Part shown: piece by piece, positions 7,068-11,678 of the stretch | How positions within the stretch are numbered: position 1 is the first letter of the stretch | How the letters are laid out: every line of letters begins with the position of its first letter | Assembly: GCA_945928585.1 (NCBI GenBank) | Contig: CAMENQ010000021.1 | Span: 1-13,277, forward strand | Direction: 5' to 3' | Source: an uncultured Roseburia sp. | Lineage (GTDB): Bacteria; Bacillota; Clostridia; Lachnospirales; Lachnospiraceae | DNA: 13,277 nt | The notes under the pieces: model-generated | Database searches by the model: none | Told to the model about the DNA's origin: nothing | The model's input: the letters and a program-made list of their open reading frames with translations, nothing else | Made by a program: the position numbers and the translations under genes

Positions 7068-9479
7068 TTAACTCTTAAATTCAACAATAGTTACTCCCGT
7101 ATCACCTTCACCAAATACGCCCAGACGGAAGGATTTGACATACTTCTGCCTTTTCAGGTGTTTGTGTACTGCATTTCTCAAAGCACCGGTGCCTCTTCCG
7201 TGAACTACTCTTACACTTGGAAGATGTGCAAGATAAGCATCATCAAGATATTTGTCGAGAACTGCCACTGCTTCGTCTGTGGTCATACCGATAAGGTTTA
7301 TTTCAGCGGATACGGAGGCAGATTTTGAAACCTTTATTTTTCCTTTGTTGGTTTTTGTAAGGTTTGGGCCTGTTATGACAGGCTCATCTATAAGCTCAAT
7401 ATCACGAATGTTAATCTGGGAGCGTAAAATACCCATCTGTACATACATATCGCCTTTATTATTAGGCAGTCCGACCACATGACCGTTTACGCCGAGACTG
7501 AGCACCTTTACTGCGTCTCCAAGCTTTATATCTTTTGGTGTAACCTCTTTATTTGGTTTTTTATTTTTAAGGGCCAGTCTGCTTTGAGTGTCATCCAGCT
7601 TTTCACGCAGACGGGTTCTATGCTTTTCCATATCCTTAGTCATGCCTGCAGAAGAAAGCTTATTGATTTCTCTTATGGATTCATCTGCAAATGACTTGGC
7701 TTCCTGCAAAATAGCCTGTGCTTCTTCGTTTGCTTCCCTCAAAATGCGTTCCCGTCTGTCATCAAGATTTTCAGATTTTTTCTCAAGCTCACCTTTGAGT
7801 TTTTCTATTTCTTCTTTGTAAGATTTTATCTGAAGATGTTCTCTTTCGATTTCAAGCTTGCTTTCCTCAAGGTCGGAAATAATATCCTCGAAGGCTTCAC
7901 TGTCAGAGTCAATGCGGGTTTTGGCATCATCTATAATATATGACGGAAGTCCAAGCTTCCCTGCTATGGCAAAAGCATTACTCTTGCCCGGAATACCTAT
8001 AAGGAGTCTGTATGTTGGGCTTAAGGTTTCTACTGAAAATTCACAGCAGGCATTTTCCACGCCTTCAGTAGAAAGGGCAAACAGCTTTAATTCGCTGTAG
8101 TGGGTGGTTGTCATGGTACGCACCTTCATATTGTGTAAAAATGTAAGAATACTTATGGCAAGGGCAGCACCCTCTATAGGGTCAGTACCGGCACATATTT
8201 CATCGAAAAGTACAAGTGATTTATCATCAGCCTTTTCAAGTATATTTACTATATTTGTCATATGAGATGAAAATGTGGAAAGTGACTGTTCAATACTCTG
8301 CTCGTCACCTATGTCCGCGTAAACCTCAGTAAATATGCTGAGCTTTGAGCCGTCATCTGCAGGAATGTGAAGTCCTGACTGTCCCATAAGAGTGAATAAA
8401 CCTACAGTTTTTAAGGAAACGGTTTTTCCTCCTGTATTAGGGCCTGTAACAATGAGAAGGTCAAAATCATCTCCAAGATGGATATTTATCGGAACCACCT
8501 TCTTCCTGTCAAGAAGAGGATGACGACCGCATTTTATGTTTATAATGCCATCAGTGCCAATTAAAGGTTCACTGCAACTGTATTCCTTGGAGAGAGCTGC
8601 CTTTGCAAATATAAAATCAAGAACTGAAAGTGTTTCAAGATTGTAGTGGATTTCTTCTGTATGTTCACCGCACATATTGCTAAGGTCTGCAAGAATTTTT
8701 TCTATTTCAGCCTTTTCCTTTATTTCAAGCTCGCGGATTTCATTGTTAAGCTGAACAACAGCCATAGGCTCTACAAAAATAGTGGAGCCTGTAGAGGACT
8801 GGTCGTGAATCATACCCGGCATATTTCCCTTGCACTCAGCCTTAACAGGGAGACAATATCGTCCGTTTCTCATGGTTATGACAAAATCCTGAAGATTAGC
8901 ACGTACAGTCTGTGAATTTACCATAGAGTTAAGCTGATTGTGGATTTTCTCGTTTGTCCTTTTCATGGAACGGCGGATAGAAGCCAGTGTACTGCTGGCA
9001 TCATCGGCAATTTCATCCTCGGATATGATGCATCTTTTTATCTCATTGTTTAAAGGAGATAAAGGCTCAAGTCCGTCAAACATTTCGGAAAGTGAATCAC
9101 GTTTTTCATCAATGTCAGCATCATCTGCAGTCCGGGTGTTTCCGGCAGAAACAGGACCTCTTGAAAATGATTTTACTCTGAGAGTCACGTTTAATACGGA
9201 GCTTATGTCAAGAAGCTCCTTTACGGAAAGACAGCTTCCGATTTCAAGTCTTTTAAGTGTGGCACGAATATCCCTTGTGCCGGAAAAAGATATGCTTCCA
9301 CCCTGCCAAAGTCTTGAAAGGGCATCACTTGTCTCGGTCAGGGCTTTTTTAATCTCCTTAATATCGGTCATGGGAGACAGCTTACGGCACATATCCTGTC
9401 CTAACGGAGATGAAGCGTGTTCTGTAAGTTTATCTATTATTTTGTTATATTCCAGTGTCTTTAAAACCTTGCTGTTCAT
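7068..9479 (-). CDS. mutS2: MutS2 (endonuclease/ribosome-rescue ATPase with Smr domain)
   Basis: The product is 803 aa from ATG 9479, full length for MutS2. I prefer ATG 9479 to the in-frame TTG at 9494. GGAG (complement of 9489-9492) stands 9 nt before the ATG and the protein then begins MNSKVLKTLEYNKII, the family N terminus. Core and lever regions occupy about 1-310. Walker A is GPNTGGKT (346-353), the signature region is DEQSIEQSLSTFSSHM (392-407), and Walker B is LVLFDEICAGTD (422-433). A long coiled coil spans about 530-615. KOW follows (LGDAVKVLSLGVNGHVVG, about 653-670), then a C-terminal Smr domain (about 726-803) with HGRGTGAL (760-767). MutS2 lacks the mismatch-recognition domain; B. 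subtilis MutS2 acts on collided ribosomes, and other homologues suppress recombination. The Smr LDLRG-type motif reads INLIG here. It is first gene of the mutS2/two-component cluster. Confidence 0.97.
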   Translation of the reverse strand: MNSKVLKTLEYNKIIDKLTEHASSPLGQDMCRKLSPMTDIKEIKKALTETSDALSRLWQGGSISFSGTRDIRATLKRLEIGSCLSVKELLDISSVLNVTLRVKSFSRGPVSAGNTRTADDADIDEKRDSLSEMFDGLEPLSPLNNEIKRCIISEDEIADDASSTLASIRRSMKRTNEKIHNQLNSMVNSQTVRANLQDFVITMRNGRYCLPVKAECKGNMPGMIHDQSSTGSTIFVEPMAVVQLNNEIRELEIKEKAEIEKILADLSNMCGEHTEEIHYNLETLSVLDFIFAKAALSKEYSCSEPLIGTDGIINIKCGRHPLLDRKKVVPINIHLGDDFDLLIVTGPNTGGKTVSLKTVGLFTLMGQSGLHIPADDGSKLSIFTEVYADIGDEQSIEQSLSTFSSHMTNIVNILEKADDKSLVLFDEICAGTDPIEGAALAISILTFLHNMKVRTMTTTHYSELKLFALSTEGVENACCEFSVETLSPTYRLLIGIPGKSNAFAIAGKLGLPSYIIDDAKTRIDSDSEAFEDIISDLEESKLEIEREHLQIKSYKEEIEKLKGELEKKSENLDDRRERILREANEEAQAILQEAKSFADESIREINKLSSAGMTKDMEKHRTRLREKLDDTQSRLALKNKKPNKEVTPKDIKLGDAVKVLSLGVNGHVVGLPNNKGDMYVQMGILRSQINIRDIELIDEPVITGPNLTKTNKGKIKVSKSASVSAEINLIGMTTDEAVAVLDKYLDDAYLAHLPSVRVVHGRGTGALRNAVHKHLKRQKYVKSFRLGVFGEGDTGVTIVEFKS

Positions 9480-9499
9480 ATTATTATACTCCAATCTGC

Positions 9500-9611: not shown

Positions 9612-9935
9612 TAAGTCCTGCAGTCTGTCTGATTGCACCCCTGATGCGCCTGCGTAAACGCCGTATGGGCAGTGTTATATTGTGTGTGTAAGCTTCGGAG
9701 GAAGCAAGAAATTTTATTAGTACAATATGGCCATTTGTTAAGCGTCGACCGTAACTCGGAAGTGTCTGAATTCTCAGCCACTTCCTCAGACAGACGGTCT
9801 CTGCTAAACAAATGACCATATTGTGCTAATAAATTTCTAGCATCCTCCTCAATGCTTACACACCCAATATAACACTGCCCATACGGTGTTTACGCAGGCG
9901 CATCAGGGGTGCAAACAGACAGACTACAGGACTTA
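9612..9935. repeat. 324-bp foldback palindrome (MITE-like or structured RNA)
   Basis: Left arm 9612-9743 and right arm 9803-9935 are inverted copies. My hand alignment finds about 11 substitutions and 3 gap positions over about 132 nt (near 89% identity). The ends read TAAGTCCTG and CAGGACTTA. The centre continues the fold: GACCGT (9747-9752) with ACGGTC (9794-9799), GGAAGTG (9758-9764) with CACTTCC (9779-9785), and CTGA-ATTC-TCAG at 9766-9777. Each arm also holds a local side hairpin: GCTTC-GGAG-GAAGC at 9692-9705, and GCAT/ATGC at 9840-9855. The side-hairpin third pair is T-A in the left arm and A-T in the right arm read in the same sense, a compensatory change. It lies between divergent genes. 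ERIC-like miniature elements are full-length palindromes inserted at TA, which fits the ends, but the TA pair is itself part of the symmetry. No convincing reading frame is present. Confidence 0.9.
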
Positions 9936-9939
9936 TTAT

Positions 9940-9967
9940 AAAAAAGTGCCGCTCGGCAGCGGCACTT
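9940..9967 (-). terminator. Leftward intrinsic terminator
   Basis: AAGTGCCGCT (9944-9953) pairs with AGCGGCACTT (9958-9967) around a 4-nt loop, a perfect 10-bp GC-rich stem. Read leftward it is followed by TTTT (complement of 9940-9943), continuing the TT of the stem, the canonical layout. It would stop leftward transcription just before the foldback element. No leftward gene lies immediately upstream of it in this window, so it may act as an insulator or belong to the repeat cluster. Confidence 0.7.
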
Positions 9968-9969
9968 AT

Positions 9970-9991
9970 AAATTCGCATTCGCGAATTTTT
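9970..9991 (+). terminator. Rightward terminator-like hairpin
   Basis: AAATTCGC (9970-9977) pairs with GCGAATTT (9982-9989) around ATTC. Two more T residues follow, giving a five-T run. The stem is AT-rich, so termination may be weak. It could end a rightward transcript through the foldback. It also forms the start of direct-repeat copy 1. Confidence 0.4.
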
Positions 9992-10040
9992 GTTGCGCTA
10001 TTTTACGTTGTTGCTTTAGGAATTTCCTATTATATAAAAA
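9970..10040 (+). repeat. Degenerate direct repeat, copy 1
   Basis: This copy begins AAATTCGCATT, passes through a T-rich stretch to TTAGGAATTTCCT (10017-10028) and ends TTAT plus an A-run. It aligns with copy 2 (10160-10225) at roughly 70% by eye. The start and the TTAGGAATT(T)CCT block are best conserved. Confidence 0.6.
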
Positions 10041-10089
10041 ACAGGTATAAAAAAATTGCAAATGTCATAAAATGTTCATATTTACAATG

Positions 10090-10146: not shown

Positions 10147-10159
10147 GTGTGATGTATGC

Positions 10160-10225
10160 AAATTCGCATTTGGGATTTTTGGTTACGATTTTGTGCCGAG
10201 CATTAGGAATTCCTGTTATTAAAAA
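10160..10225 (+). repeat. Degenerate direct repeat, copy 2
   Basis: Same orientation as copy 1, 190 bp away, with identical AAATTCGCATT start. It contains the perfect palindrome AGGAATTCCT (10206-10215) and ends TTATT plus A-run. It lacks the perfect hairpin of copy 1. The frame through it happens to be open into the following gene but is better read as non-coding. Confidence 0.6.
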
Positions 10226-10247
10226 GTGTACAGAAATGAGGATTTTT

Positions 10248-11678
10248 ATGAGTGATGTTAAAAAAATTCATAATGATATAAATGAGAAGAATAATCTTCA
10301 GGAGGATTATACCTTTGTAAGGGAGACTATTAAAAAGAAACCGCCAGCTTTTGTGACCGTGCTTATGAAGATAGGAAAAGTTCTTGGCATGGGAGTGGTT
10401 TTTGGATTAGGCGTGTGTCTTGTGCTTTTTATTTTTAACAGGGATATAAGGGATGCATTTTTGGGAAATGAGAAAAGTGATAATGCTGATAAAGAGAAAA
10501 GCACATACAGTAGCGAGGAAAAGGACAGTACCATATCAGAGGCGGAAAGTGTAGGACTTGATGAAAAAATAGATGCACAGATTGTTGATGTTGCAGTAGT
10601 TTTTTATAAAGAGGAGGAAACTACTACTAGAGAAACTGAAAGTAATCAGGAAACTACAGTAATGTATCAGGAAGAGGAAGTGACTGCTGATATTTCTGAT
10701 AATAAGGAAATTCAGACAACTACTGCCACACAGCCGGAAAACACCACTGAAAAAAAGACAACAGGAGAAATAAATACAGAGTCAGAAACTACACAAAGTA
10801 CTGAAAACAAGCGTGTAGAAGAAAAGAACCACTATACAGGACTTGTAGTAGGTGCGGTGGGAGATGTGTTTATATGTGTTGAGAACGACAGAATAAGTGG
10901 TGCAGGTGATATTTTTGTTTCATTTGAAAATGGTAATTATGTAAATGCAACTGTGTATGGCTATGATGCCATGAACGGATTGGCTGTTCTGAGAGTTTTT
11001 GCAAAGGACATAGATGACGAAACGAAAGCAAAAATCAAATCTGTTAATGTAAAAGATATAGATGAGATGAATGAGGGAGATAAGCTGGTGTATGCGGGAA
11101 ACCCATATGGTAACGGAAGGCTTATGTATACAGGAACACTTGCAGGTGTTGATTCAGGTCATTGCAATTATGATACCTTTTACAGAGGTGTTGTAACTGA
11201 TATAAGTAATGGAGATATACAGGACGGCTTCATATTTGACAAAAACGGTGATATAGTGGCAATGGTGGTAGGTGATGAAGAACTTGGCTATAGGAACAAT
11301 ATTACAGGTGTATGTATGGAGGACATTATGTTTATTGTAAGGGCTCTTGCAGATGGAACCCTAATAAAACATATTGGCATAAAGGGTGAAGCGGTGACAG
11401 ATGATATGAGAGAGCTTACAGGAGAAAAAATGCCGGATGGAATGTATGTAACGGATGTTGCAAGAGAATCATCGGCATATAAATCCGGCATAATGGTTGG
11501 AGATATTGTCATATCAGTAGGGGACAGTCAGGTGGCTGATATGAAGGATATTCAGAAGGTTCTGGATAAAGCATCAGTCCGTGCAGATATTACTCTTGTG
11601 GTAAAGCGAAAAATAGGAACAGGCTATAGTGAATTTACCATAAAAGTTCCTGTGGAGGCTTATGGAGGAAGAAAGTGA
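10248..11678 (+). CDS. Membrane-anchored HtrA-like protein with degenerate protease domain and PDZ domain
   Basis: The product is 476 aa from ATG 10248, chosen because GAGG (10238-10241) stands 6 nt upstream. The frame is open further back, but only through repeat copy 2. Residues 1-44 are cytoplasmic and charged, and 45-64 are one membrane span. About 70-195 is a Thr/Glu/Ser-rich, low-complexity extracytoplasmic linker. About 196-365 has the trypsin-like HtrA layout: DAMNGLAVLRV (240-250) matches the usual D-x-x-x-DLAVLK segment but has Gly244 in place of the catalytic Asp. GNPYGNG (284-290) matches GNPLG. The GNSGGP loop is replaced around 322-331 (GDIQDGFIF), so the nucleophile Ser is gone. 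No TNxHV histidine is visible. A PDZ domain follows (about 374-468). It is probably a non-proteolytic binding protein of the envelope. The YhaM gene follows after 10 bp and uses a ribosome site overlapping this stop. Confidence 0.85.
   Translation: MSDVKKIHNDINEKNNLQEDYTFVRETIKKKPPAFVTVLMKIGKVLGMGVVFGLGVCLVLFIFNRDIRDAFLGNEKSDNADKEKSTYSSEEKDSTISEAESVGLDEKIDAQIVDVAVVFYKEEETTTRETESNQETTVMYQEEEVTADISDNKEIQTTTATQPENTTEKKTTGEINTESETTQSTENKRVEEKNHYTGLVVGAVGDVFICVENDRISGAGDIFVSFENGNYVNATVYGYDAMNGLAVLRVFAKDIDDETKAKIKSVNVKDIDEMNEGDKLVYAGNPYGNGRLMYTGTLAGVDSGHCNYDTFYRGVVTDISNGDIQDGFIFDKNGDIVAMVVGDEELGYRNNITGVCMEDIMFIVRALADGTLIKHIGIKGEAVTDDMRELTGEKMPDGMYVTDVARESSAYKSGIMVGDIVISVGDSQVADMKDIQKVLDKASVRADITLVVKRKIGTGYSEFTIKVPVEAYGGRK

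Follow-up and report, generated by a model that had tools for sequence, protein, structure and literature searches.

A family of long foldback repeats with a conserved asymmetric centre in the genome of an uncultured Roseburia species

The attC sites of integrons have arms that vary in sequence while their pairing and unpaired landmark bases are kept, and these sites are recognised as a folded strand. The palindromic repeat ERIC is the same element as RU-1. In enterobacteria the RU-1 unit measures 127 bp (PMC2759123), and REP sequences, treated together with TnpA-REP, are described as palindromic, extragenic, present in many copies and 20-40 bp long (PMC3733652, PMC8266576). Hairpin stems can be kept paired by template switching, published as quasipalindrome correction (PMC8794818), the described cases being RNA genes and inverted repeats in coding sequence (PMC8794818, PMC8604942). 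Mitochondrial genes of Nematomorpha hold long perfect inverted repeats of up to 284 bp, and template switching has been put forward as one of the possible causes of the concerted evolution of their arms (PMC6649704). At replication in E. coli, SbcCD cuts the hairpin to which an interrupted palindrome of 246 bp folds (PMC3315005). Here we analyse a palindromic repeat from an uncultured Roseburia sp., of which we found no description in the literature searched.

The window, that is, the whole stretch of DNA analysed (13,277 nucleotides), carries a foldback element of 324 bp at 9612-9935, between a MutS2-like gene on the left (7068-9494, minus strand) and, on the right, a gene whose product has PDZ and trypsin-like domains (10149-11678, plus strand). 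Positions within the element are given on the plus strand, the orientation being defined by its core. Self-complementarity, folding and genome BLAST delimit the element, and the foldback that the preliminary description had drawn here is real and correctly placed, the sequence being self-complementary over its entire span. The palindrome is far beyond chance: a BLAST reverse-strand self-match reaches 84% across all 324 nt, while ungapped palindrome scores are at most 44% at unrelated centres in the window and the maxima of three shuffled windows were 42, 42 and 47%. The RNA fold of this copy has -235.8 kcal/mol (z -28.5), and the DNA folds of its two strands have z -26.1 and -28.5. Its outer arms (9612-9693 and 9854-9935, 82 nt) are 95% complementary and its inner arms (9710-9752 and 9794-9836, 43 nt) 84%, with halves that are not in ungapped register throughout. 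The earlier figure of arms of about 132 nt at about 89% identity is tenable only as a gapped estimate; ungapped, the first 132 nt are 69% identical. Outside the centre common to the copies, the 5' outer arm (9612-9675) is complementary to the 3' outer arm (9872-9935) at 61 of 64 positions, and the closest other copy matches the 5' arm at 65% over 60 nt, with no higher sharing. At 9938-10041 the window holds a second repeat, 83% identical to a stretch of the congener G001 (L031:1501-1603), which begins with a strong terminator-like hairpin (9944-9967, minus strand); akin stretches lie near 10160-10211 and, by eye, at the start of locus L012.

The draft genome to which the window belongs (G000) comprises 2.39 Mb in 369 contigs and is 84% complete. 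BLAST found at least 40 distinct places in it that carry the centre (9676-9871), with 40 of 100 candidates scored (two of the 42 matches are reverse readings of copies already counted), and a covariance model added at least 15 further places, with 150 of 1299 candidates scored. The family thus occupies at least 55 dispersed places. In 10 of them a contig end interrupts the core, so that two pieces may belong to one copy. The element is clearly not single-copy; a single copy was among the findings that, taken together, would have spoken against the mobile or conserved element proposed in the preliminary description. The polarity of the core is fixed: each of the 39 loci compared with the centre in both directions gave a clearly better score in one of them. 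Other arms and ends around a centre of the same type mark a second subfamily (L077-L083), and decayed or partial copies are present as well (L084-L088). The arm test used 40 of the 55 places, the other 15 being cut, half or decayed copies; 30 copies entered the core alignment, 37 the count of stop codons, 36 the comparison of arm identity, 35 that of composition, and 34 each the tests of end motifs and of target duplications.

BLASTN, which had been proposed for the same genome and for other Lachnospiraceae, thus gave many matches in the former, but no relative of the element came out of a DNA search of 60 related genomes. The single DNA match there, 23 nt in G001, belongs to the neighbouring repeat and not to the palindrome. 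The covariance model had no match in three congeners and none in 298 other genomes of the family (G001 included), under strict filters with nine candidates scored per genome, by which weak relatives could be missed. No copy was found in the phages and plasmids searched. An exact pattern had no match in GTDB contigs and viral contigs, and a looser one gave six and one stretches, respectively, none of which fits the covariance model; these collections may omit records of this genome or of one very near to it. Within these limits, the family is seen in one species only. A palindrome scan of the fetched loci, itself blind to the family, gave nine matches in 278 kb (overlaps included), none with the core, and one match in 50 kb of congener loci.

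What the copies have in common is an asymmetric centre of 196 bp (9676-9871), in which other copies are 70-84% identical to the window copy by BLAST and alignment. Its core (9690-9857) is the basis of our covariance model R1, with 168 positions and 60 pairs from the alignment of 30 copies. In this alignment the unpaired positions of the centre are invariant or nearly so, and the helices between them vary. An internal loop has TTC on its 5' side (9694-9696, invariant in all 30 copies) facing TCAAT on its 3' side (9849-9853), of which T, A, A and T are invariant and C is present in at least 90% of copies. Two A-A mismatches, 9706 with 9839 and 9740 with 9806, are invariant on both sides in 30/30 copies, as is a T at 9715 that is bulged in the consensus structure. 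In the alignment and consensus structure, the apical internal loop consists of an invariant AACTC (9753-9757) and of TCAGACAG (9786-9793), the first G of which is variable. One G-U pair of the core is constant in 29/30 copies. The preliminary description had further seen a small hairpin in each arm, and had read a T-A to A-T swap between them as a sign of selection. Both can be drawn in the window copy (9692-9705 and 9840-9855, the latter with a C-A mismatch beside its loop), but across 30 copies neither is conserved as a hairpin. We rejected selection on them because their pairing is at the shuffled level (55.7% of cells against 56.0%) and no pair is doubly changed; the supposed covariation is really the conserved difference between the arms, TTC versus TCAAT.

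How does this compare with the systems named above? Like ERIC, the family is an intergenic palindromic repeat of mobile type. The ERIC likeness suggested earlier breaks down on length, with copies of 226-424 bp in 37 of 40 cases (the remaining three have 158, 173 and 203 bp; a contig end truncates four of the 40, and uncut elements measure about 290-420 bp) versus 127 bp for the enterobacterial unit, although the two are set apart by description and not by sequence. REP sequences share with the family that they are palindromic, extragenic and present in many copies, and shortened forms of about 50-75 bp look REP-like, but full copies are roughly 10 times longer than the 20-40 bp REP/RAYT hairpin. 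No Y1 transposase (PF01797) was found in this 84% complete genome, five of 14 control genomes being positive, and neither was the reverse transcriptase (PF00078) of a retroelement or group II intron, for which three of 14 controls were positive. Within the limits of this incomplete genome we reject an element driven by either enzyme, and the search for these two yielded no mobilising gene. As in quasipalindrome correction, the arms remain complementary through joint two-sided changes; unlike in the published cases, the process would here work on a dispersed repeat of at least 40 copies whose asymmetric centre is protected. The palindromes of Nematomorpha are likewise long, and template switching is conceivable for their arms too, but they are protein-coding and mitochondrial and, in the account referred to above, are not presented as one dispersed family. 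With integron attC sites the family has in common variable arms, retained pairing and retained unpaired landmarks; it differs in being much longer and in having a conserved centre instead of conserved ends. By the features tested, the best reading of the distribution is mobile-type, similar to MITEs or REPs, and outside ERIC, REP and the typical MITE.

The core and the arms vary in a way that keeps them paired. Across the 30 aligned copies, 97.0% of the cells of the rod structure are paired and 42 of 60 core pairs show two-sided changes; none of 500 shuffles was as high on these measures, although the rod is favoured by having been derived from the same alignment on which it is tested. Sliding the partner by 1 to 3 columns lowers the pairing to 37-46%. 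The covariation that had been proposed as a check is therefore strong in the rod, and one-sided intermediates are rare among the core pairs. Outside the 168-nt core, the arms are 95.2% Watson-Crick (40 copies, 2797 columns, counted over the paired stretch as delimited by the alignment itself). Arm identity within a copy lies between 0.82 and 0.98 in 31 of 36 copies and is only 0.15-0.70 in the other five (L019, L034, L036, L078 and L081), while between copies its median is 0.37 (5-95% range 0.07-0.68), against a shuffled median of 0.23 (range 0.03-0.60). In 12 pairs of related copies, which were chosen for similarity and share copies, arm changes were two-sided in 116 columns, one-sided in 88 and of other kinds in 37, with 21 gap columns. 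Arms that are paired within a copy and divergent between copies suggest that one has been copied from the other at the DNA level.

The mismatches that remain in the arms bear on the same question. RNA stems tolerate G-U more than A-C, so G-U should be much the commoner if one RNA strand were the selected form. In the 40 copies we counted 53 G-T against 47 A-C mismatches (p 0.62), i.e. no wobble bias, judged against this general expectation for RNA stems and without a positive-control RNA family; an earlier count on 30 copies had given 49 against 38. In the core, once the constant G-U pair is left out, 13 pair columns contain G-T and 13 contain A-C; counted cell by cell, A-C is ahead (33 against 13). 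The p-values are optimistic, since the copies are related to one another and derive from a single genome. The lack of wobble bias argues against selection on one RNA strand and for homogenisation at the DNA level, and together with the two-sided changes it fits arm-to-arm copying in DNA.

On this evidence we consider it somewhat probable that the family is a non-coding foldback repeat of mobile type, multiplied in the genome of one species, whose arms are homogenised as DNA. The element would act as folded DNA, forming a hairpin or a cruciform during replication, and one arm would be copied from the other by template switching or by arm-to-arm conversion. Through such copying the sequence of the arms may drift while their pairing stays. 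Pure arm copying would erase the conserved loops too, and a selected function of the centre must therefore be assumed: its loops and mismatches could escape copying by being needed by a putative factor that recognises and spreads the element. The hairpins themselves might be tolerated through a lack of SbcCD. One observation is unexplained by a DNA-only account, namely the strand bias of the 5' outer arms, in which G+T makes up more than half in 30 of the 34 copies without a tie (35 tested); the flanks likewise hold more G than C on the G+T-rich strand.

That bias would suit a structured RNA, either a 3'-untranslated region or an independent non-coding RNA, in which the rod is selected as RNA and the copies are the 3' ends of genes. 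We hold this to be unlikely. The strong covariation of the rod, the invariant loops and the constant G-U pair are all what such an RNA would show, and an ORF of 120 codons or more stops within -25 to +15 nt of an element end in 21 of 37 copies, a raw count given without a background rate. Yet the neighbouring gene may sit on either side of the core. Nor do the flanks, read by eye, show a T-run behind the hairpin as a rule, exceptions including L018 and L007. A separate terminator-like hairpin occurs in 5 of 76 flanks (shuffled 1.6%), but the wrong strand also gives 5 of 76, and an association with terminators is therefore not supported. One copy (L026:1805-1954) lies behind genes for tRNA-Cys and tRNA-Asn and a terminator-like hairpin. 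Rfam 15 has no match at gathering score in the window, and the six loci of other copies searched gave three matches below it, all to microRNA precursor families, two inside the element and one (L003) outside; we took these as chance matches of a long hairpin and rejected a known Rfam RNA. The mismatch counts given above also weigh against the RNA reading. A published prediction bears on it as well: within-strand switching should enrich G-C and U-A pairs where G-U is tolerated (PMC8794818), which might favour an RNA stage.

A bolder form of the DNA reading, to which we give only a minor chance, is that the family represents mobile DNA of a new kind, recognised in the form of a folded strand, in which only the central loops and mismatches are specified by sequence, the arms being continually rewritten by template switching, and whose expansion was possible because the host lineage is without SbcCD. 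SbcD is over its family cut-off in all three congeners and in this 84% complete genome no SbcD reaches it; the profile matches only a different Mre11-like protein, which scores 59.6 bits where the cut-off is 77.65, and a Mre11/Rad50-like pair other than SbcCD lies at G000:C190 (L094:1092-4266). The SbcC of a congener had no match in this genome, in a search run without a positive control whose empty result alone shows nothing. For the gene next to sbcCD in one congener, the match in this genome is no better than 29%, and the neighbours of sbcCD differ among congeners. Given 84% completeness and a neighbour gene without a close match, an assembly gap may explain the absence of SbcCD. Moreover, SbcD is below the cut-off in 8 of 21 genomes, this one included; of the other seven, G011, G012, G039 and G043 are 95-99% complete, and a DNA search found no copy of the family in these four; a missing SbcD alone does not bring the repeat. 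That several well-completed relatives are also without an SbcD over the cut-off lowers the weight of the folded-strand reading with SbcCD loss.

Could the family instead be an ordinary MITE, whose transposase reads terminal inverted repeats and whose hairpin is a by-product? Like a MITE it is a short, non-coding element, dispersed over at least 55 places, with an inverted-repeat structure, size variants and truncated copies. An ordinary Pfam domain is present in 18 of 20 neighbouring ORFs scanned (37 listed), several of these domains extending to the C-terminus, so that these neighbours are not visibly truncated. A terminal motif, TAACAGTTCAG, is present at both ends (at least 9 of 11 bases) in 9 of 34 copies, and it matches the genome 53 times (reversed-pattern control 2), while three congeners have 0, 1 and 2 matches (controls 2, 3 and 4), no excess over controls. 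Among these 53 matches, on short contigs, there was no inward-facing pair at the spacing of an IS on one contig. Of 20 stretches read around further motif matches, 7 held short hairpins, about 50-75 bp long, that carry the motif at each end. Among 34 copies, direct repeats in the flanks reach 6 nt in 3, 7 nt in 2 and 8 nt in 1, where shuffling gave means of 0.43, 0.095 and 0.025; the 8-nt repeat is at L003, and for 7 nt none of 200 shuffles exceeded one. We nevertheless find a MITE of this kind quite unlikely. At the same threshold, 25 of 34 copies, the window copy included, are without the motif at one or both ends, which are less conserved than the centre, and the second subfamily differs in its ends. 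Conserved, inverted terminal repeats of the kind that a MITE has in common with its parent IS are thus not a feature of the family, and no parent transposase was found among the few families sought. The whole element is palindromic, which is unlike a MITE, and in 31 of 34 copies the flanks hold no repeat of at least 6 nt. No consistent target duplication emerges from this, and a TA duplication, as the TA-flanked ends proposed earlier would suggest, was not seen in the 34 copies. In two places the ends show further structure: a near-perfect palindrome of 75 bp and different sequence sits immediately inward of a family terminal motif (L120:229-303), and in the left flank of L034 an 18-nt arm-end unit (GGATGGCAGGCTGT...) is, by eye, tandemly repeated beyond the element, and only on that side.

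Very unlikely, in our view, is that the centre of about 196 bp is the mobile unit, inserting into pre-existing palindromes, with outer arms that are hairpins of the host. Short hairpins without the centre do carry the same terminal motif, and the outer arms of many copies look unrelated; but homology fades gradually outward, with TATATTATG and a GGCAGG-like stretch discernible by eye in many copies, and at least one shortened form, L107, has the look of a long copy with an internal stretch deleted. An assembly or amplification artefact, in the form of foldback chimeras, is barely credible even for a draft in which a contig end breaks the core at 10 of 55 places, since the copies have different host flanks and a common asymmetric centre, and about 5% of arm columns are non-Watson-Crick, which is unexpected for independent chimeras.

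By the features tested, the family is a new variant among bacterial palindromic repeats. Its centre is better conserved than its ends, a misfit with the usual picture of how small repeats spread. Covariation is usually taken as proof of a selected RNA; here, stems covary without wobble bias, and some 40 copies form a natural set for separating RNA selection from the copying of arms at the DNA level. Given the cleavage by SbcCD of an interrupted palindrome of 246 bp, folded as a hairpin, in E. coli (PMC3315005), a genome with some 55 long palindromes is also a natural test of the limits set to palindromes in bacteria. The unusual evolution of its arms makes the family useful as a natural test of how hairpins are maintained.
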